A stretch of 32,037 nt of DNA from Vicinamibacteraceae bacterium (GTDB lineage Bacteria > Acidobacteriota > Vicinamibacteria > Vicinamibacterales > UBA8438), in the NCBI GenBank assembly GCA_012271165.1, contig JAAXGX010000205.1, positions 1-32,037 on the forward strand, given 5' to 3'. Below are positions 21,861 to 31,297 of this stretch, piece after piece. How positions within the stretch are numbered: position 1 is the first letter of the stretch; every line of letters starts with the position of its first letter. The position numbers were made by a program, and so were the translations under genes. The notes under the pieces were generated by a model. The model was not told where the DNA came from. It ran no database searches and was given only the letters and a program-made list of their open reading frames with translations.

Positions 21861-21875
21861 GAGCCGTTACGGCTC
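21861..21875. terminator. Small hairpin between convergent OmpA and formamidase genes
   Basis: GAGCCG-TTA-CGGCTC gives perfect 6-bp arms with a three-base loop that is the stop codon of the minus-strand gene. The two genes are only 7 bp apart, so it may serve both strands. It is short and without a T-tract. Confidence 0.3.
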
Positions 21876-23012
21876 CAGGAAGATCTCCTTCGGGACGAAG
21901 GCCGTCACCACCTGCGTCAGATCGACGGCCTCGGCGACGCGGAAGTCGACCGCGATGCTGGCGAGCGAGAACGCCTGCGAGCGCGTCAGGCCGCGCTCCT
22001 CGACGAGGAAATCGACCGTCGCCACCACCGCCTTGCGCAGCGCGCGGTCGAGGTCGAGGTCGATCCCCATCAGGATGTGGTGCGCCGCGTTCTCGGCGCG
22101 GGGGCCGTCGACGGAGCGGTCCTTGTGCAGCACGAAGCGGAAATCGCCGCCGAGCGACTGCTCGATGGCCGTGCCGCTCACCTCGCCGTCGCCCTGCGCG
22201 GAGTGCGGGTCCCCGACGTAGAAGCGCGCGCCCGGATGGAAGACCGGCAGGTAGAGCGTACTGCCGGCCGTGAGGTCCTTGACGTCGAGGTTCCCGCCGA
22301 ACGGCCCCGGCGGGCGCGACGCCTGCACGCCGGCGAGCGTCACGCCCGGCTGCCCGACGGTCGGGCTCTCCGGCGCCACGGCCATGATGCCCATGAACGG
22401 CGCGAGCGGCACCTGGACCGTGTCCGAGAAGAAGGCCACCTCCCGGCCGCCGGCCTCCCCGGTCCGAATGAAGTGCCGCACGGCCGGCATGCCGGGGAAC
22501 GGCTCGTCGTCGGGCGCGGTGCCGGGATAGCCCGGGCCGAGGACGCCGGTCGCGGGGCCCGTGCTGTTGATGCCGTAGGGCACCCGCGTGCGCAGCGCCA
22601 GGACCTGCACCTCAAGCACGTCGCCCGGCTCGGCGCCCTCGATGTAGATCGGCCCGGTGATCACGTGCCCGCTGCGTCCCTCGCGGGGCCGCTCCGACCG
22701 GGTCCCCCAGAAATCGAGGACGTCCTGCAGGACGTCCTCGGGCGCCACGCCGAACTGGCCGAGATAGCGCTCCGGATCCGCGGCCTGCGTGGTCCCGGCG
22801 TGGCTGAGCGTGTCGATGCGGACCGTCTCGCCCGACCGGACGGTCAGCACGGGCGCGCGATCGATCGGGAACCAGCCCCAGACGACGTTCTCCGGCGTCG
22901 ACCGCACGACGTGCTGCGGCGCGGCCTCCTGGGCGCCGAGCGGCCCCGCAGCAACAGACGCAAGCGCGGCGGCCAGGAAGGTGACGAACGGGAGGCGCAA
23001 CCGCGGATGCAT
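21867..23012 (-). CDS. Exported acetamidase/formamidase-family protein
   Basis: This protein of about 381 residues belongs to the FmdA/AmdA amidase family, which hydrolyses formamide or short amides to ammonia and acid. Signature stretches are TGPIYIEGAEPGDVLEVQVL, FMGIMAVAP, GGNLDVKDLTAGSTLYLPV and FYVGDPHSAQGDGEVSGTAIE, the strongest family motif. A signal peptide (LRLPFVTFLAAALASVAAGP) sends it to the periplasm, unlike the classical cytoplasmic enzymes. ATG 23012 is used (GGAGG three bases before); the track starts at GTG 23015. It follows the unknown secreted protein gene by 25 bp on the same strand. Confidence 0.9.
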   Translation of the reverse strand: MHPRLRLPFVTFLAAALASVAAGPLGAQEAAPQHVVRSTPENVVWGWFPIDRAPVLTVRSGETVRIDTLSHAGTTQAADPERYLGQFGVAPEDVLQDVLDFWGTRSERPREGRSGHVITGPIYIEGAEPGDVLEVQVLALRTRVPYGINSTGPATGVLGPGYPGTAPDDEPFPGMPAVRHFIRTGEAGGREVAFFSDTVQVPLAPFMGIMAVAPESPTVGQPGVTLAGVQASRPPGPFGGNLDVKDLTAGSTLYLPVFHPGARFYVGDPHSAQGDGEVSGTAIEQSLGGDFRFVLHKDRSVDGPRAENAAHHILMGIDLDLDRALRKAVVATVDFLVEERGLTRSQAFSLASIAVDFRVAEAVDLTQVVTAFVPKEIFLEP

Positions 23013-23037
23013 CACCCTCCGGCCGGACGTCGCGCCG

Positions 23038-23970
23038 TCACGGATTGACGACGAAGGTCACGTCCTCGGCCGCCAGGAGCCCCCCGTCATGGGCGAGGGA
23101 GCGCAGGACGTAGGTGCCCGGCTCGCTGAAGGTCGCCTGCACGGCCCATTTGCCATCCGGCGGCGCCGGGGGCGTCTTCCAGCCGGGCGAATAGGGCGAG
23201 TCGGCGTTGTTTCTGGTGTCCTCCCATGCCTTGAACTGCGGCGGATCGAAGACGACCTCCCCCGCGCCCCGGTAGACGAACCAGGACAGCCGGAGACCGC
23301 TCGCGGCGTTCGGCGTCACGTTGACCGGCCTCCGCGCCGGGTTGAAGCGCCGCATGGGCCTCGGCTCGGGGAGCCCGTCATCCGTGGCATGCGCCACCAG
23401 ATCGACCGGCTGTCCCACCTTGACGGTGCGGGTCAGCCTGCCGTCGACCGTGAGCTCCGGCGGCTGGTTCTTGTAGATCTCGCCGGAGACCCCCCCGCCG
23501 CTGTTCGCCATGATCACGCTGTTGTCGATGTAGTAGTCGGGGTGGAGCGTGGCGTATGCCCGCTTCGTCTCGCCGTTGGGACTCGTCAGGGTCCACACGA
23601 CCTCGCTGTCGCCGAAATCCGCCGGGACGCGGATCCTGAAGAGGAACCGATTGCGTCTCGGGAGAAAGTGGGTCGGCTGCCCCTGGTCCGGCGCGCCGGG
23701 CTCGAGGCGATTGTCGGGACCCGGTGGGATGTCGATCTCCTCTTCCCAGTTTCGGTTGAAGTAGCCGAAGACCAGGTTGAAGGACCCGTCGGGATTCGGC
23801 TCCCAGCCCTCGTACGCGGGCACGACCTCCTGGCCGGTCGCGAACGATTCCCGCATCTTCCGCGGGCCCTGGGCGCCGCTCTCCAGAACGGCCCCGACGA
23901 CAAACGCCAACGCCACGAGCAAAGCGCAGCCCAGCCTCCACATCTGCCGCCGAGTGCGCGGTTCGTTCAT
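23038..23970 (-). CDS. Secreted protein of unknown function
   Basis: This 310-residue protein is not assigned to a family. It has a signal peptide (MNEPRTRRQMWRLGCALLVA, cleavage near SGA-QG). The mature part looks all-beta: NLVFGYFNRNWEEEIDIPPG, then PTHFLPRRNRFLFRIRVP, a SPNGETKRAYATLHPDYYID strand, and a C-terminal Ig/PKD-like end (FSEPGTYVLRSLAHDGG). The end reads like a polycystic-kidney or cadherin-type module for binding rather than catalysis. ATG 23970 is preceded by GGGAGGG at good spacing, which overrides the ORF start at 24066. It lies between the cytochrome/monooxygenase and formamidase genes, presumably one operon. Confidence 0.8.
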   Translation of the reverse strand: MNEPRTRRQMWRLGCALLVALAFVVGAVLESGAQGPRKMRESFATGQEVVPAYEGWEPNPDGSFNLVFGYFNRNWEEEIDIPPGPDNRLEPGAPDQGQPTHFLPRRNRFLFRIRVPADFGDSEVVWTLTSPNGETKRAYATLHPDYYIDNSVIMANSGGGVSGEIYKNQPPELTVDGRLTRTVKVGQPVDLVAHATDDGLPEPRPMRRFNPARRPVNVTPNAASGLRLSWFVYRGAGEVVFDPPQFKAWEDTRNNADSPYSPGWKTPPAPPDGKWAVQATFSEPGTYVLRSLAHDGGLLAAEDVTFVVNP

Positions 23971-24074: not shown

Positions 24075-25556
24075 CTACTGATTTCCGTCGGCGTCGGCGT
24101 CGGCGACAGCGTCCGCGTCCGCCTGGGCCTCGTTGAGCGGGTCGTCCACGCCGCAGAGCGGGCAGCCGAGCACGCGGTCGCCCGGGGCCACGTCGAGCGC
24201 CGCCTCGCGCGCGGCAAGGGCCGCCTTGAACTCGTCGTCGTCCAGATAGCTGCCCTGCATGATGTTGATGAACATCTGGTCGACCGAACGGTGGCCTCCA
24301 CCGGACCAGTTGCGCGGATCGGGAACGTTCGGGTTCGACGCCGAGTTGTTGAACCAGCCGGTGATGTGCAGGATGGTGCCCTTCGGCAGCAACGGCATCG
24401 CATCATCCTCGTAGGAATAGACGCGCACCCAGCTGTGGTCGTACCCCGCGCAGTTGAGGGTCTCGATCGTGGTGCCGTAGATGGCCTCGAGACACATCCG
24501 CACGCCGGGCGCATGCATGTGGGGCTCGAATACGGCGATCCGCGCATGCTCCGGGAGCACGAAATACGATTCCATCGTCTGGTTCGGGTGCATCGCCTCG
24601 ACGTCCAGGTCGACACCGTTGCCGAACGAAATGAGCCTCTGGTCCACCTTCGGCTCGTATCCCCGCGGATGGAACTTGAAGCCGATGTCGAGGCGGGCCT
24701 GGGTGTCCGCGCCGTTGGCGTGCAGGTGCATCGAGGTGAACCGGATCTTGGAATTGGCCGCCATGAGCTTGCCGCCGTCGGCATCGAAGACGTCGGCGTT
24801 GCGCCCGACCTCGTGGACCGGCCAGCTGCTGAGCCCCGCGCGCGCCAGCTCGTCGTCCGCCTCGCTGTCAGGATCGACGACGCGGATGACCGCATGGTGG
24901 ACGACGAAGCGCCCCCCGACCGTCTGCCGGCTGGTTCCGACCCGCGACTCGGTGACTTCCTTGAACTCGACCGCCGAGACGTAGCGATCTTCCGTCAGAC
25001 CGGTCGGCCTGTCCTCGATCGCGCCCCACCAGTCCGGCTGCTCGGCCTTCACTTCTACGCTGGGGCTCGACACGATCAGATCAGGCTGGCCGATCTCCCA
25101 CTCGTCCACGTCGATGAAAGCGAGCGGCGGCGGCAGGTCGTTCGGATCGCCCTGGGGCGCACCGTTGTCCGCCCAGGCCGCGATCTTCGCGATCTCGTCG
25201 TCGCTCAACGACGGATCGTTCTTGAACTCCTGGATGCCGATGTCCTTCTCGATGTACCACGGCGGCATCACGCCCATCGTGTCGCGGAGGCCGGTCCGAT
25301 ACTTCATCGCCCGCGCCCAGGGACGCACCTCTTCGTAGTCGATCAACGACATCGGCGCCAGCGAGTCGGGCCGATGGCACTTCTGGCAGCTCCGCTGCAG
25401 GATCGGTGCGATGTCCTTCGTGAACGTCACCTGCTCGGTGGCGTCGGGTGCCGGAACCTGCCCGGCCGCGGGCACTGCCGCCATGACGGCGATGGCCGCG
25501 ACTGCAAGCGCGGTTCCCGCCACCGCCGATTTCCGGGGATGGTGCTGGATGGTCAT
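24075..25556 (-). CDS. Exported cytochrome c / copper type II monooxygenase-like fusion
   Basis: This 493-residue periplasmic protein has a signal peptide ending near AAG-QV. Residues 42-135 are a c-type cytochrome domain with one haem site CQKCH (57-61), a later MPPW that could give the Met ligand, and the helix DDEIAKIAAWADNGAP. Residues 190-440 resemble the PHM/DBM copper-monooxygenase fold: FVVHHAVI (His220, 221), MHLHANG (277, 279), PHMHAPGVRM (346, 348 and Met354) and HITGWFNNS. These are plausible CuA/CuB ligands. The tail has a Cys pair (GCPLCG) and an Ala-Asp run. ATG 25556 with GAGGAA seven bases upstream fixes the start. It probably couples haem electron transfer to copper-dependent oxidation; the substrate is unknown. 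Confidence 0.82.
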   Translation of the reverse strand: MTIQHHPRKSAVAGTALAVAAIAVMAAVPAAGQVPAPDATEQVTFTKDIAPILQRSCQKCHRPDSLAPMSLIDYEEVRPWARAMKYRTGLRDTMGVMPPWYIEKDIGIQEFKNDPSLSDDEIAKIAAWADNGAPQGDPNDLPPPLAFIDVDEWEIGQPDLIVSSPSVEVKAEQPDWWGAIEDRPTGLTEDRYVSAVEFKEVTESRVGTSRQTVGGRFVVHHAVIRVVDPDSEADDELARAGLSSWPVHEVGRNADVFDADGGKLMAANSKIRFTSMHLHANGADTQARLDIGFKFHPRGYEPKVDQRLISFGNGVDLDVEAMHPNQTMESYFVLPEHARIAVFEPHMHAPGVRMCLEAIYGTTIETLNCAGYDHSWVRVYSYEDDAMPLLPKGTILHITGWFNNSASNPNVPDPRNWSGGGHRSVDQMFINIMQGSYLDDDEFKAALAAREAALDVAPGDRVLGCPLCGVDDPLNEAQADADAVADADADGNQ

Positions 25557-25961: not shown

Positions 25962-28397
25962 ATGCGAAGGTGTCTGTACTGGGTCGCCGGTTGGCTGATC
26001 GCCGGGGTAGCGGGGGTCGCGTCTCCCGGTTGGGCGCAGCCGGCTTCACCGGCGCACGAAGACGGGACAGCGGCCGACTCCGAGACCCGGGCCGTCCTGC
26101 AGCGCTACTGCCAGGGGTGCCACAACGAGCGCGCCGCCGTCGGCCGCGACACGGGGTTGACGCTCGACACGCTCGCCGCCGAGGACCCGGCCGGCGCCCC
26201 CGGGCAGTGGGAGAAGATCGTCCGCCGCCTGCGGAACGGGTCGATGCCCCCGGCGGGGCGTCCGCGCCCGAGCGCCGACGTCTACGAGCGCACGGCGGCC
26301 TGGATCGAGGCCCGGCTCGACGCCGCGGCGGCCGCCCGGCCGAACCCCGGCCGTCCGGCGGTGCTCCACCGCCTCAACCGCGCCGAGTACCGCAATGCCG
26401 TGCGCGACCTGCTGGCGCTGGACGTCGACGTGTCGTCGCTGCTGCCCGCCGACACGTCCAGCTACGGCTTCGACAACATCGGCGACGTGCTGGGCGTGTC
26501 GCCGCTGCAGCTCGAGAGCTACCTCTCGGCCGCCAACCGGATCAGCCGGCTCGCCGTCGCCAGCAGCCCGGCCGTCGCCGTGACCGCCGACGTCTACAAG
26601 GTGTCGACGGAGCTGACGCAGACGGATCGTCTCGAGGGCATGCCGTTCGGCACGCGCGGGGGCACGCGCGTCGAGCATTTCTTCCCGGTCGACGGCGAGT
26701 ACGAGATTCGCGTCCGCCTCGCGCGCAACAGCTACGGCATCGTCGGCCTGCGGGAGCCGCACCCGCTGGAGATCACGCTCGACGGCGCGCGTGTCCAGCT
26801 GGTGACCGCGGGCGCCGGCGTGTCGAGCGCGGACGCGGACGACCGCCGCGAGCGGTACAAGCTGCAGGACGACAACCTCCACGTGCGCCTGCCCGTGCAG
26901 GCCGGGCCGCACACCGTGGGCGCCGCCTTCCTCAAGCGGCCGTCGGCGCAGGTCGAGAGCGTGCGGCGCCCGTTCCTGCGCGCGCTGCTGGAGCATGGCC
27001 AGTCGCACCAGATCCCGTACATCGGCGAGATGGTCATCACCGGGCCGTTCGAGCCCGCGCCGCCGGACAGCACCCCCAGCCGCGACCGCATCTTCCTGTG
27101 CCGCCCGGCCGGCAGCGGCGACGAGGCGCCGTGCGCGCGGCGCATCGTCACGACGCTGGCGCAGCGGGCCTTCCGCCGGCCGGCGACCGACGCCGAGATG
27201 CGCATGCTGATGGCCTTCTACGACGACGGGCGCCGCGGCGGCAGCTTCGACAGCGGCGTCGAGCGGGCGCTGACGCGCATCCTGGTCAGCCCGGCGTTCC
27301 TGTTCCGGCTGGAGGCCGACCCGCTGGACGCCAGACCGGGTGCGCCGTACGAGCTGGACGACTGGACGCTGGCCTCGCGGCTGTCGTTCTTCCTGTGGAG
27401 CAGCATCCCGGACGACGAGCTCCTCGCGCTCGCCGGGCAGGGCCGCCTGCGCGACCCGGCCGTTCTCGAACGGCAGACCCGGCGCATGCTGGCGGACCCG
27501 CGGTCGGACGCGCTGGTCGCCAACTTCGCCGGGCAGTGGCTCTACCTCCGCAACCTGTCCGTGCCGCAGCCCGACTTCCGGCTGTTTCCGGACTTCGACG
27601 ACAACCTGCGGCACGCGTTCCGGCGCGAGACGGAGCTGCTGTTCGAGAGCATCATCCGCGAGGACCGCAGCGTGGTGGACCTGCTCGCGGCCGACTACAC
27701 CTTCGTCAACGAGCGGCTGGCGCGCCACTACGGCATGCCGCACGTGTACGGCGACCACTTCCGCCGCGTGAGCACGGCCGAGCAACCCATGCGGGGCGGC
27801 CTGCTGGGCCAGGGCAGCTTCCTCACGGTGCAGTCGCTGGCGACGCGGACGTCGCCGGTCAAGCGCGGCATCTGGATCCTGGAGAACATTCTCGGCACGG
27901 TGCCGCCCGACCCGCCGCCCAACGTGCCGCCGCTGGCGGCGGATGCCTCCGACGGCCGCCCGCGGTCCATGCGGGAGGCGATGGAAGCGCACCGCGCGAA
28001 TCCCACGTGCGCGGCGTGCCACCGGCTGATGGACCCGCTGGGGCTGTCGCTGGAGAACTTCGACGCGGTCGGCCAGTGGCGCGAGGTCGGCGCGTCGAAC
28101 GAGCCGATCGACGCCTCCGGGGAGTTGCCGGACGGCACCCGCTTCGCCGGCGTGGCGCAGCTCAAGCAGGCGCTGCTCGCGCATCGGGAGCAGTTCGTGA
28201 ACACCCTGACCGAGAAGCTGCTGACGTACGCGCTCGGCAGGGGCCTCGAGCACTACGACGCGCCGGCGGTCCGCCGCATCACCCGCGCGGCGGCGGGTCA
28301 GGATCACCGCTTCTCGGCACTGGTCCTCGGCATCGTCGAGAGCGTGCCGTTCCGCATGCGCATGGCCGGCGGCGACGCGCGGCAAGCGCAGAATTGA
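25962..28397 (+). CDS. Exported DUF1592-family protein with two haem-c motifs
   Basis: This 811-residue protein has the multi-domain architecture common in Acidobacteriota and Planctomycetota. It has a signal peptide up to WAQ (about 25), a cytochrome-like PSCyt segment with CQGCH (50-54) and the DUF1587 signature VLHRLNRAEYRNAVRDLLAL. A carbohydrate-binding-like beta region follows (about 230-350), then DUF1595/1592 (AQRAFRRPATDAEM, LASRLSFFLWSSIPDDELL), DUF1588 (VKRGIWILENILGTVPPDPP) with a second CAACH near residue 683, and a DUF1585-type C-terminus (LTEKLLTYALGRGLEHYD). Function is unproven; haem-linked surface chemistry is a family-level idea. The following DUF1552 gene, 31 bp on, is its near-constant partner. 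Confidence 0.92.
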   Translation: MRRCLYWVAGWLIAGVAGVASPGWAQPASPAHEDGTAADSETRAVLQRYCQGCHNERAAVGRDTGLTLDTLAAEDPAGAPGQWEKIVRRLRNGSMPPAGRPRPSADVYERTAAWIEARLDAAAAARPNPGRPAVLHRLNRAEYRNAVRDLLALDVDVSSLLPADTSSYGFDNIGDVLGVSPLQLESYLSAANRISRLAVASSPAVAVTADVYKVSTELTQTDRLEGMPFGTRGGTRVEHFFPVDGEYEIRVRLARNSYGIVGLREPHPLEITLDGARVQLVTAGAGVSSADADDRRERYKLQDDNLHVRLPVQAGPHTVGAAFLKRPSAQVESVRRPFLRALLEHGQSHQIPYIGEMVITGPFEPAPPDSTPSRDRIFLCRPAGSGDEAPCARRIVTTLAQRAFRRPATDAEMRMLMAFYDDGRRGGSFDSGVERALTRILVSPAFLFRLEADPLDARPGAPYELDDWTLASRLSFFLWSSIPDDELLALAGQGRLRDPAVLERQTRRMLADPRSDALVANFAGQWLYLRNLSVPQPDFRLFPDFDDNLRHAFRRETELLFESIIREDRSVVDLLAADYTFVNERLARHYGMPHVYGDHFRRVSTAEQPMRGGLLGQGSFLTVQSLATRTSPVKRGIWILENILGTVPPDPPPNVPPLAADASDGRPRSMREAMEAHRANPTCAACHRLMDPLGLSLENFDAVGQWREVGASNEPIDASGELPDGTRFAGVAQLKQALLAHREQFVNTLTEKLLTYALGRGLEHYDAPAVRRITRAAAGQDHRFSALVLGIVESVPFRMRMAGGDARQAQN

Positions 28398-28428
28398 CGG
28401 ATTGAGGGCATACGGGAGCTGAAAACCA

Positions 28429-29775
28429 ATGCTGATCACCAAGCAAGCACTTCCGCGACGAACGTTTCTGCGCGGCATGGGCGCCGCGGTGGCCCTGCCG
28501 CTGCTCGATGCCATGGTGCCGGCCCTGACGGCGGCCGCCCGCACCGCGGCCGCGCCGGTCCGCCGGCTCGGGTTCATCTACTTCCCCAACGGCGCGAACA
28601 TGTTCCAGTGGCCCAGCGCCGGCGACGCCAAGCAGCTCGAGCTGTCCCCCACGCTGGCACCGCTCGGCAAGGTCCGCGGCGCCGTCACCGCGTTCTCCGG
28701 CCTCGACAACGCGCCGGCGGACGCCTGGGGCGACGGGAGCGGCGACCACCCGCGCAGCGGGTCGTCCTGGCTCAACGCCGTGCATCCCAAGAAGACCGAG
28801 GGCGCCGACGTGCGGGCCGGCACGACGATCGACCAGATCGCCGCCGCGGAGTTCGGCAAGGAGACGCCGCTGGGCTCGCTGGAGCTGTGCCTCGAGCCGG
28901 CGGGGTGGGTCGGGAGCTGCGGGGGCACCGGCTACAGCTGCGCCTACACCGATACCATCGCCTGGAGGACGCCGACGACGCCGCTGCCGATGGAGCGCAA
29001 CCCGCGCAACGTGTTCAACCGCCTGTTCGGCGACGGCGCAACGGCCGAGGAGCGCATCGCGCGGCGGCAGCTCGACCGCAGCGTGCTCGACTCGGTCACC
29101 GAGGAGATCGCCGGGCTGCAGCGGCGGATCGGCCCCGCGGACCAGTTGCGGCTCACCGAGTACCTGGACGCGGTGCGGGAGATCGAGCGGCGCATCCAGC
29201 GCGCCGAGGCGCACAGCGCGAGCATGCCGGACGTCGACCGCCCGCTCGGGATTCCCGACGGCACGGCCGCGCACTGCAAGCTGATGTACGACCTGCAGGT
29301 GCTGGCCTACCAGGCCGACGTGACGCGCGTGGTCACGTTCCAGCTGGGCCGCGAGGTCAGCCAGCGCACGTTCCCCGAGATCGGTGTCCCGGATCCGCAC
29401 CACTCCAACTCGCATCACCTGAACGACCCGGCGCGGCTGGAGAAGATCGCCCGCATCGACACGTTCCTCGTGCAGCTCTTCGCGTACTACCTGGAGAAGC
29501 TGCAGGCGACGCCCGACGGCGAGGGTACGCTGCTCGACAACGTGATGGTGCTGTACGGCGGGGGCATCAGCGACGGCAACCTGCACATCCACACGTCGCT
29601 GCCGCTGGTGGTCGCCGGTCACGGCGGCGGGCGGCTGGCCGGCGGGCGGAACCTGGAGTATCCGGCCGGGACCCCGCACGCCAACCTGCTCGTCTCGCTG
29701 CTCCACAAGGCGGGCGTGCCGGTCGAGAAGATCGGCGACAGCACGGGTCGGCTCGATGGCCTGTCCGATGTCTAG
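28429..29775 (+). CDS. DUF1552-family protein, Tat-exported
   Basis: This 448-residue protein begins with a twin-arginine signal, PRRTFLRGMGAAVALPLLDAM, so it is exported folded, perhaps with a cofactor. The DUF1552 core is seen in RRLGFIYFPNGANM, LDNAPADAWGDGSGDHPRSGSSWL, TIDQIAA, YLDAVREIERRI and VTFQLGREVSQRTFPEIGVPDPHHSNSHH, ending PHANLLVSLLHKAGV. The His/Asp-rich patches (GDHPR, DPHHSNSHH) resemble metal sites of sulfatase or alkaline-phosphatase-like folds, so hydrolytic activity is possible but not shown. It has no strong Shine-Dalgarno (GGAGCTG upstream). Its stop lies inside the start of the ankyrin gene. Confidence 0.92.
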   Translation: MLITKQALPRRTFLRGMGAAVALPLLDAMVPALTAAARTAAAPVRRLGFIYFPNGANMFQWPSAGDAKQLELSPTLAPLGKVRGAVTAFSGLDNAPADAWGDGSGDHPRSGSSWLNAVHPKKTEGADVRAGTTIDQIAAAEFGKETPLGSLELCLEPAGWVGSCGGTGYSCAYTDTIAWRTPTTPLPMERNPRNVFNRLFGDGATAEERIARRQLDRSVLDSVTEEIAGLQRRIGPADQLRLTEYLDAVREIERRIQRAEAHSASMPDVDRPLGIPDGTAAHCKLMYDLQVLAYQADVTRVVTFQLGREVSQRTFPEIGVPDPHHSNSHHLNDPARLEKIARIDTFLVQLFAYYLEKLQATPDGEGTLLDNVMVLYGGGISDGNLHIHTSLPLVVAGHGGGRLAGGRNLEYPAGTPHANLLVSLLHKAGVPVEKIGDSTGRLDGLSDV

Positions 29776-31297
29776 ACGGGCCAGCTCGGGGGCGGCTGCC
29801 ACGGCCTGGCTGGCCGCGGCACTGCTGCTCTGCCCGCTCGCCGCCGCGGCGCAGCCCCCGCTGATCGAGGCGGTCAAGGGCGGGGATCTGGCCGCGGCGC
29901 GCGCGCTGCTCGACCAGGGCGTCGACGTGAACGCGCCGGAGGTCGACGGCACGACGGTGCTCCACTGGGCGGCGCATCGCGACGATCTCGAGGCGGCCGA
30001 GCTGCTGATCGGCGCGGGGGCCAACGTCGCCGCCGGGAATCGGTACGGCGTGACCCCCATCTCCCTGGCGGCCACCAACGGCAGCGCCGCGATGATCGAG
30101 CGGCTGCTGGCCGCCGGCGCCGACGCGAACGCCAGCCTCCTGGAAGGCGAGACGGCGCTGATGACCGCTGCCCGCACCGGCGCGGTCGAGGCGGTCCGCG
30201 TCCTGCTCGATCACGGCGCCGACGTGAGCGCGGTCGAGCAGTGGCGCGGCCAGACGGCCCTGATGTGGGCCGCCGCCGAGGGTCATGCCGCGGTGGTGCG
30301 CGAGCTCGTCGCCCGCGGCGCGGAGGTCGACGCACGCTCGAGCCCCGGCGGCGACGATGCGGACGCCGGCGGCGAACGCCCCGGCGGCTTCTCGGCGTTC
30401 CTCTTCGCCGTCAGGAACGGCCACCTGGGGGCAGCGCAGGCACTGGCCGACGCGGGTGCGAACCTGAACGATACGGCGCCCGACGGCTCGAGCGCGCTGG
30501 TCGTGGCGGTCGACAATCGCAACTACGAGCTGGCGGTCTGGCTGCTGCAGCGCGGAGCCGACGCGAACGCGGACGGCGTGGGGTGGACCGCCCTGCACAC
30601 GGCAGTCCTGGCGCACCGGCCCCATTTCCGGGTCGTGCCGGACCCGCTGCCGACCGGCCGCGTCGACAGCTTCGGCCTGCTCGAGGCGCTGGTGACCCAC
30701 GGGGCCGATCCCAACCGGCCGGCCGATCGGCGCGTGCGCCTGGCGCAGGCCACGTCGCCGCTGTTCGACACCGTCGGGTCGACGCCCTTCATGCTGGCGG
30801 CCGTGGCGGCCGACGTGCCGGTGATGCGCCTGTTGCTGGCCCACGGCGCGGATCCGTACGTCAAGACGCCGGCGGGGTCGACCGCGCTGATGGCGGCGGC
30901 TGGCGCGGCGACCTACGCCTGGCAGAGCCCGGGCTCGGAGGCGGAAGCGCTGGAGGCGGTGAAGCTGGTCCTGGAGTCGGGCGTCGACGTCAACGAGGCG
31001 GACGAGGCGGGCAACACGGCGCTGCACGGCGCGGCGAACCGGGGCGCCAACTCGGTCGTCGAGCTGCTGCTGGCGCGGGGCGCCAGGCTCGATGCCGCCA
31101 ACGAGGAAGGCTGGATGCCGGTGACGATCGCGCAGGGACCGGTCGACACGATCGAGCCGTTTCCCGAAACCTACCGGTTCCTGCTCGGACTGATGGAGGC
31201 GGCGGGGCTGAGCCCTCCGGCCTGCCCGCAGTGCGCGCTCGGCTACACCAACGACGAGATCGTCCTCGCCGGCAGCGAGCCGGACGCTGCCCGCTAG
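29768..31297 (+). CDS. Exported ankyrin-repeat protein
   Basis: This 509-residue protein has a signal peptide (MSRRASSGAAATAWLAAALL, cleavage near AAA-QP). About ten ankyrin repeats follow, several exact to consensus: DGTTVLHWAAHRDDLEAAELLIGAGANV, EGETALMTAARTGAVEAVRVLLDHGADV, RGQTALMWAAAEGHAAVVRELVARGAEV, AGNTALHGAANRGANSVVELLLARGA. An acidic Gly/Asp insert (SPGGDDADAGGERPGG) interrupts the middle and the C-terminus carries CPQC. Periplasmic ankyrin proteins probably act as binding scaffolds. ATG 29768 overlaps the DUF1552 stop by 8 bases; ATG 29756 is the longer alternative. Position in the operon suggests it works with the DUF1592/DUF1552 pair. Confidence 0.9.
   Translation: MSRRASSGAAATAWLAAALLLCPLAAAAQPPLIEAVKGGDLAAARALLDQGVDVNAPEVDGTTVLHWAAHRDDLEAAELLIGAGANVAAGNRYGVTPISLAATNGSAAMIERLLAAGADANASLLEGETALMTAARTGAVEAVRVLLDHGADVSAVEQWRGQTALMWAAAEGHAAVVRELVARGAEVDARSSPGGDDADAGGERPGGFSAFLFAVRNGHLGAAQALADAGANLNDTAPDGSSALVVAVDNRNYELAVWLLQRGADANADGVGWTALHTAVLAHRPHFRVVPDPLPTGRVDSFGLLEALVTHGADPNRPADRRVRLAQATSPLFDTVGSTPFMLAAVAADVPVMRLLLAHGADPYVKTPAGSTALMAAAGAATYAWQSPGSEAEALEAVKLVLESGVDVNEADEAGNTALHGAANRGANSVVELLLARGARLDAANEEGWMPVTIAQGPVDTIEPFPETYRFLLGLMEAAGLSPPACPQCALGYTNDEIVLAGSEPDAAR

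Follow-up and report, generated by a model that had tools for sequence, protein, structure and literature searches.

Peptide hormones and noradrenaline are products of PHM (peptidylglycine alpha-hydroxylating monooxygenase) and DBH (dopamine beta-hydroxylase), enzymes whose two coppers lie far apart and are supplied with electrons by a route that is still debated. Within a 32,037-nucleotide stretch of DNA from a Vicinamibacteraceae bacterium (contig JAAXGX010000205.1; hereafter the window), one gene encodes a protein in which a haem c motif precedes copper-type motifs reminiscent of these enzymes, and it is followed on the same strand by two further genes, the second of which is of the acetamidase/formamidase family. 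The locus raises the questions of whether a bacterium encodes a copper monooxygenase with its own haem, and whether the neighbouring genes take part in the same chemistry. A reading made from the letters of the DNA alone (the sequence-only reading) had proposed a self-contained periplasmic enzyme releasing an amide that the amidase would then hydrolyse. A 2020 review table places PHM and DBM under eukaryotes only (PMC7435645). In the open-access literature we found no description of a bacterial PHM/DBH-like family fused to haem c, which is weak evidence of absence.

Organization of the gene and conservation of its motifs

A GAGGAA Shine-Dalgarno-like motif, read by eye, lies 5′ of the predicted start codon, and the features of the gene are as follows.

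24075-25556, minus strand: encodes the 493-aa haem c / type-II dicopper monooxygenase-like protein, from an ATG at 25556 to a stop at 24075
25458-25556, minus strand: Sec-type signal peptide, approximately residues 1-33, from sequence inspection; a low-confidence tail in the structural model
25374-25388, minus strand: CQKCH haem c attachment motif (C57-H61), invariant
25266-25268, minus strand: M97 of MPPW (residues 97-100), likely axial haem ligand
24894-24899, minus strand: H220-H221 (VVHH), predicted CuH ligands, aligned with DBH H262/H263 and PHM H107/H108
24726-24728, minus strand: H277 (MHLH), predicted third CuH ligand, aligned with DBH H333 and PHM H172
24513-24521, minus strand: H346-M-H348 (PHMH), predicted CuM ligands, aligned with DBH H412/H414 and PHM H242/H244
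24273-24275, minus strand: M428 (VDQM), predicted CuM thioether ligand, aligned with DBH M487 and PHM M314

In a profile of 94 homologues, drawn from the window's own genome and from 78 loci in other genomes, residues C57, C60, H61, M69, M97, H220, H221, H277, H346 and H348 are present in all 94 proteins, and M428 in 92 of 92, two rows being gapped at that position. Every homologue contains a single CxxCH, and the invariance of the ligands holds although identity among the homologues drops to about 28%. Because they are invariant across 94 homologues of this and other genomes, the copper and haem motifs of the window protein are not chance occurrences. The motif order described in the sequence-only reading – an N-terminal CQKCH cytochrome ahead of HH, HLH and HMH...M – is borne out, both in the window protein and in the conservation of these residues among the homologues. 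The designation of HLH as a copper motif holds for its first histidine, since H277 is invariant and a likely CuH ligand, whereas the second, H279, is kept in 80 of the 94 proteins and is not a ligand. M69 is as invariant as M97, and is an alternative candidate for the axial ligand of the haem.

The match of the window protein to Cytochrome_CBB3 scores 16.7 bits, below the Pfam cut-off of 27, and 89 of the 94 homologues match the cytochrome model at E<1. The signal peptide and the haem c motif together suggest a periplasmic location for the enzyme.

Relationship to DBH and PHM

An AlphaFold2 model built from the 94 homologues (pLDDT 87.8, pTM 0.84) was compared with the PDB using Foldseek. The first-ranked match was human DBH (4zel; E 3.2e-11), and ranks 1-30 were all DBH or PHM, with E values from 3.2e-11 to 3.1e-5; a single-protein sequence search of the PDB gave no useful match. 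The rmsd of the superposition is large (6-7 Å over about 310 columns), as expected if the copper subdomains sit at a different angle, so the angle between the two may differ from that in PHM.

Profile-profile comparison with DBH and PHM (E 6e-6, probability 85%) paired all six predicted copper ligands with DBH, whose sequence was checked against 4zel: H220/H221 fall on VHH, H277 on the first His of VHYH, H346/H348 on HTH and M428 on EEM. By position these are H262, H263, H333, H412, H414 and M487, the established copper ligands of DBH. In PHM the CuH ligands are H107, H108 and H172, and ascorbate provides one electron per copper (PMC6123673). Structure prediction had been put forward as a check on copper-site geometry; it returned the DBH/PHM fold, and the alignment pairs the six ligands with those of DBH, so that at the level of fold and residue correspondence the check came out in favour. 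Together with the CxxCH motif, fold and ligand pairing support the presence of haem c and a PHM/DBH-type dicopper core within one exported chain.

The copper region of the window protein is not recognised by any model in Pfam or NCBIfam. The Pfam model Cu2_monoox_C does not match it, and all copies in its genome score below 23 bits, under the curated cut-off. The PROSITE-type patterns HHMxxFxC and HxFx4HTHxxG occur in none of the 94 homologues and are both present in the DBH control. The window protein shares with DBH and PHM, which are copper type II ascorbate-dependent monooxygenases (PF01082 plus PF03712), the two-subdomain beta-sandwich, secretion, and the order and flanking residues of the six ligands, but differs in the domain that accompanies this core – haem c here, DOMON in DBH and PAL in PAM – and in being bacterial and multi-copy.

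A conserved partner gene

Directly downstream of the enzyme gene lies a second gene of the same orientation.

23038-23970, minus strand: partner gene, encoding an exported Ig-like beta-sandwich protein; likely start ATG at 23970 (reading frame open from 24066)

Its product consists of two Ig-like domains with no redox residues, and no Cys, His or Met is conserved in it. Pfam returned a weak PKD/Ig-like similarity and Foldseek tandem-Ig folds, and neither placed the protein in a named family or gave a functional match. Since the partner is encoded as a separate exported protein and lacks conserved redox residues, it is probably a structural or substrate-docking subunit.

At the 78 external loci, 74 of the 90 enzyme genes are immediately followed by the partner on the same strand, at a distance of no more than 300 bp; the partner is upstream on the same strand at most of nine further enzyme genes, and is absent from six, several of which are at contig ends. 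Partner genes number 29 in the window's genome and 39 in the same-genus genome G001. Distances among enzyme paralogues and among partner paralogues in the window's genome are correlated (r = 0.68 over 23 pairs, with none of 5000 permutations as high), although the nearest neighbours of the two sets agree in only 6 of the 23 pairs. Given this linkage and the correlated paralogue distances, we conclude that enzyme and partner form a conserved two-gene unit whose members have broadly been duplicated together. The partner is not obligatory across the wider family, because distant copies in the window's genome (L112-L116) are without it.

Two other arrangements were seen in the window's genome. At paralogues L104, L105, L108, L110 and L111 the partner stands ahead of the copper gene, the pair being kept with its order inverted, and at L128 (G000:C107:9300-19821) a local tandem amplification has placed three haem-copper genes near one another, accompanied by a single partner gene.

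The formamidase gene and other neighbours

The third gene of the minus-strand series starts about 25 bp after the partner gene.

21867-23015, minus strand: exported protein of the acetamidase/formamidase family, FmdA/AmdA (PF03069, E 3.5e-34)

Members of the FmdA/AmdA family are usually cytoplasmic; the N-terminus of this one is signal-peptide-like, and it would be an exported amidase. The gene is adjacent to the pair, as described in the sequence-only reading, and is probably co-transcribed with it in the window, but the arrangement is not conserved elsewhere. FmdA was found at none of the 78 external enzyme loci, some of which end shortly after the pair; the near-orthologue loci L002 and L065 continue past the partner, and there the next gene is on the opposite strand and is not FmdA. 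The same-genus genomes G001 and G002, with 54 and 25 monooxygenase copies, contain no FmdA, and among the FmdA places listed in other relatives none adjoins a listed pair. Of the proposed conserved linkage of three genes, the middle one is retained, and FmdA is a local passenger outside the conserved unit.

This distribution bears on the proposal that oxidative N-dealkylation, resembling peptide amidation, releases an amide that the adjacent formamidase hydrolyses. The close spacing of an exported FmdA/AmdA gene in the window is in its favour, but the gene is missing from the external loci, L002 and L065 included, and from G001 and G002. Moreover, the position of PHM Arg240 is occupied by Glu or Gln in 87 of the 94 homologues (E 71, Q 16, with R in 2), and those of Asn316 and Tyr318 are mainly hydrophobic (I/F and L/I/W, respectively). 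In PHM these three residues bind the peptide carboxylate, so that Glu or Gln in place of Arg240 argues against carboxylate binding, and hence against literal peptide-amidation chemistry. We therefore consider amide release for the formamidase very improbable.

Some 400 bp upstream of the copper gene, a divergent run of plus-strand genes starts (25962-31297); it encodes a PSD/DUF1592 cytochrome protein, a protein with DUF1552 (HXXSHH) and an exported protein with ankyrin repeats. The Planctomycete-type PSCyt1/DUF1592 and DUF1552 proteins (25962-29775, plus strand) resemble the window enzyme in being exported, in having a small N-terminal haem c domain and in their occurrence in Acidobacteriota, but their C-terminal domains are unrelated and their operon is divergent. 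Genes of the PSD type are found repeatedly in the vicinity of copper-gene copies. Other candidate operon partners (DUF5916, PQQ propellers, PSD/DUF1592, an SSF symporter, GSDH and a methyltransferase) were considered, and none is linked consistently. Clustering of gene neighbours yielded mainly shadow ORFs and general families, and no regulator or transporter consistently linked to the enzyme gene.

Copy number and distribution

The window's genome (G000; 3.7 Mb, 72% complete) contains 41 enzyme genes, counted like the others as genome-search matches, and the same-genus genomes G001 (4.2 Mb) and G002 contain 54 and 25. Other genomes of the same Acidobacteriota family have 13-29 copies, for a family-wide range of 13-54. 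Elsewhere in the order, most of the genomes sampled from other families gave no match, although several other genera did; matches were found in 66 of 297 Acidobacteriota genomes, and also on contigs labelled Gammaproteobacteria, Gemmatimonadetes and others, these being unverified bin labels.

In a tree, the copies of the window's genome form 19 separate clades, with sequences from other genomes interspersed among them, and the window gene has counterparts elsewhere that are 84-85% identical, compared with at most about 72% identity to paralogues in its own genome. On these grounds many of the copies are old lineages kept side by side, and their long retention suggests distinct substrates. So high a copy number per genome is unusual for a single enzymatic step, and the residues around the CuM ligands vary among the homologues; both would fit a degenerate copper domain that serves copper or O2 sensing, signalling or metal storage without catalysis. 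Degenerate copies normally lose ligands, however, whereas all six ligands of both copper sites are kept here across divergent paralogues, and the consistently linked regulator or transporter sought by neighbour clustering was not found. We consider a non-catalytic role quite unlikely.

Proteins above the Pfam Cu2_monoox_C cut-off occur in 15 of 149 Acidobacteriota genomes, taken as a spread. All 12 of those that were fetched are matched by the 94-homologue profile, and a CxxCH is present at the N-terminus of 11, so that the haem fusion is a broad bacterial architecture, of which the window's subfamily is a branch beyond Pfam's reach. These nearest recognised relatives have the same order, haem c first and then the HH ... 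HMH core, but belong to more distant subfamilies, and the partner gene is present at one of the 12 fetched loci, the flanks of which span only about 1 kb.

Two distant paralogues, L114:3967-7236 and L110:3251-5368, lie in frames of 1090 and 705 aa, with the haem motif at about residues 690 and 303, respectively. The extra length may reflect additional fusions, or no more than the chance openness of GC-rich sequence upstream.

Discussion

The gene architecture, predicted fold, ligand conservation, two-gene linkage, co-duplication and copy number lead us to favour, as the probable explanation, a secreted PHM/DBH-type copper monooxygenase that is wired to its own haem, with haem in the role of ascorbate, and that acts with a partner protein on diversified substrates. 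The N-terminal cytochrome c domain would accept single electrons from the periplasmic cytochrome pool and pass them from haem c first to CuH (H220/H221/H277) and then to CuM (H346/H348/M428), so doing the job that ascorbate does for the animal enzymes. By analogy with PHM and DBH, from which copper loading, electron flow and hydroxylation are all extrapolated, O2 would be activated at CuM and a small organic substrate would be hydroxylated at an aliphatic or benzylic C-H. The two-domain Ig-like partner would contribute structure or substrate docking, and, with the family multiplied in one Acidobacteriota family, different copies most likely oxidise different substrates.

The direction of electron flow could also be the reverse, with the copper domain oxidising its substrate without oxygen insertion and the haem delivering electrons to the respiratory chain, as in a cytochrome-linked dehydrogenase or oxidase. 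Where a periplasmic enzyme is fused to a haem c domain, this domain is often an electron acceptor, and the neighbouring exported proteins in these genomes include cytochrome-fused and PQQ-type oxidoreductases that feed respiration. The window protein, however, has the exact ligand set of PHM and DBH, the CuM Met included, and to our knowledge all characterised proteins with this set are monooxygenases that need electron input; we regard reverse flow as unlikely. The favoured haem-wired monooxygenase has a parallel in fungi, where the haem of cellobiose dehydrogenase reduces LPMOs and a haem domain thus feeds electrons to a secreted copper monooxygenase. The fungal proteins differ in having other folds, haem b and not haem c, separate polypeptides and a mononuclear His-brace copper.

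The wider proposition – a bacterial PHM/DBH-type clade in which a fused haem c has replaced ascorbate, and which, with its Ig-like partner and up to 54 copies, would constitute a broad periplasmic toolkit for C-H oxidation – seems to us evenly balanced. If it is true, the built-in electron donor would provide a tractable system for timing the delivery of single electrons to CuH and CuM, and vitamin C would not be the sole reductant for PHM/DBH chemistry. The presence of tens of copies per genome, unnamed by standard models, points to a large unrecognised oxygenase capacity outside the cell membrane.
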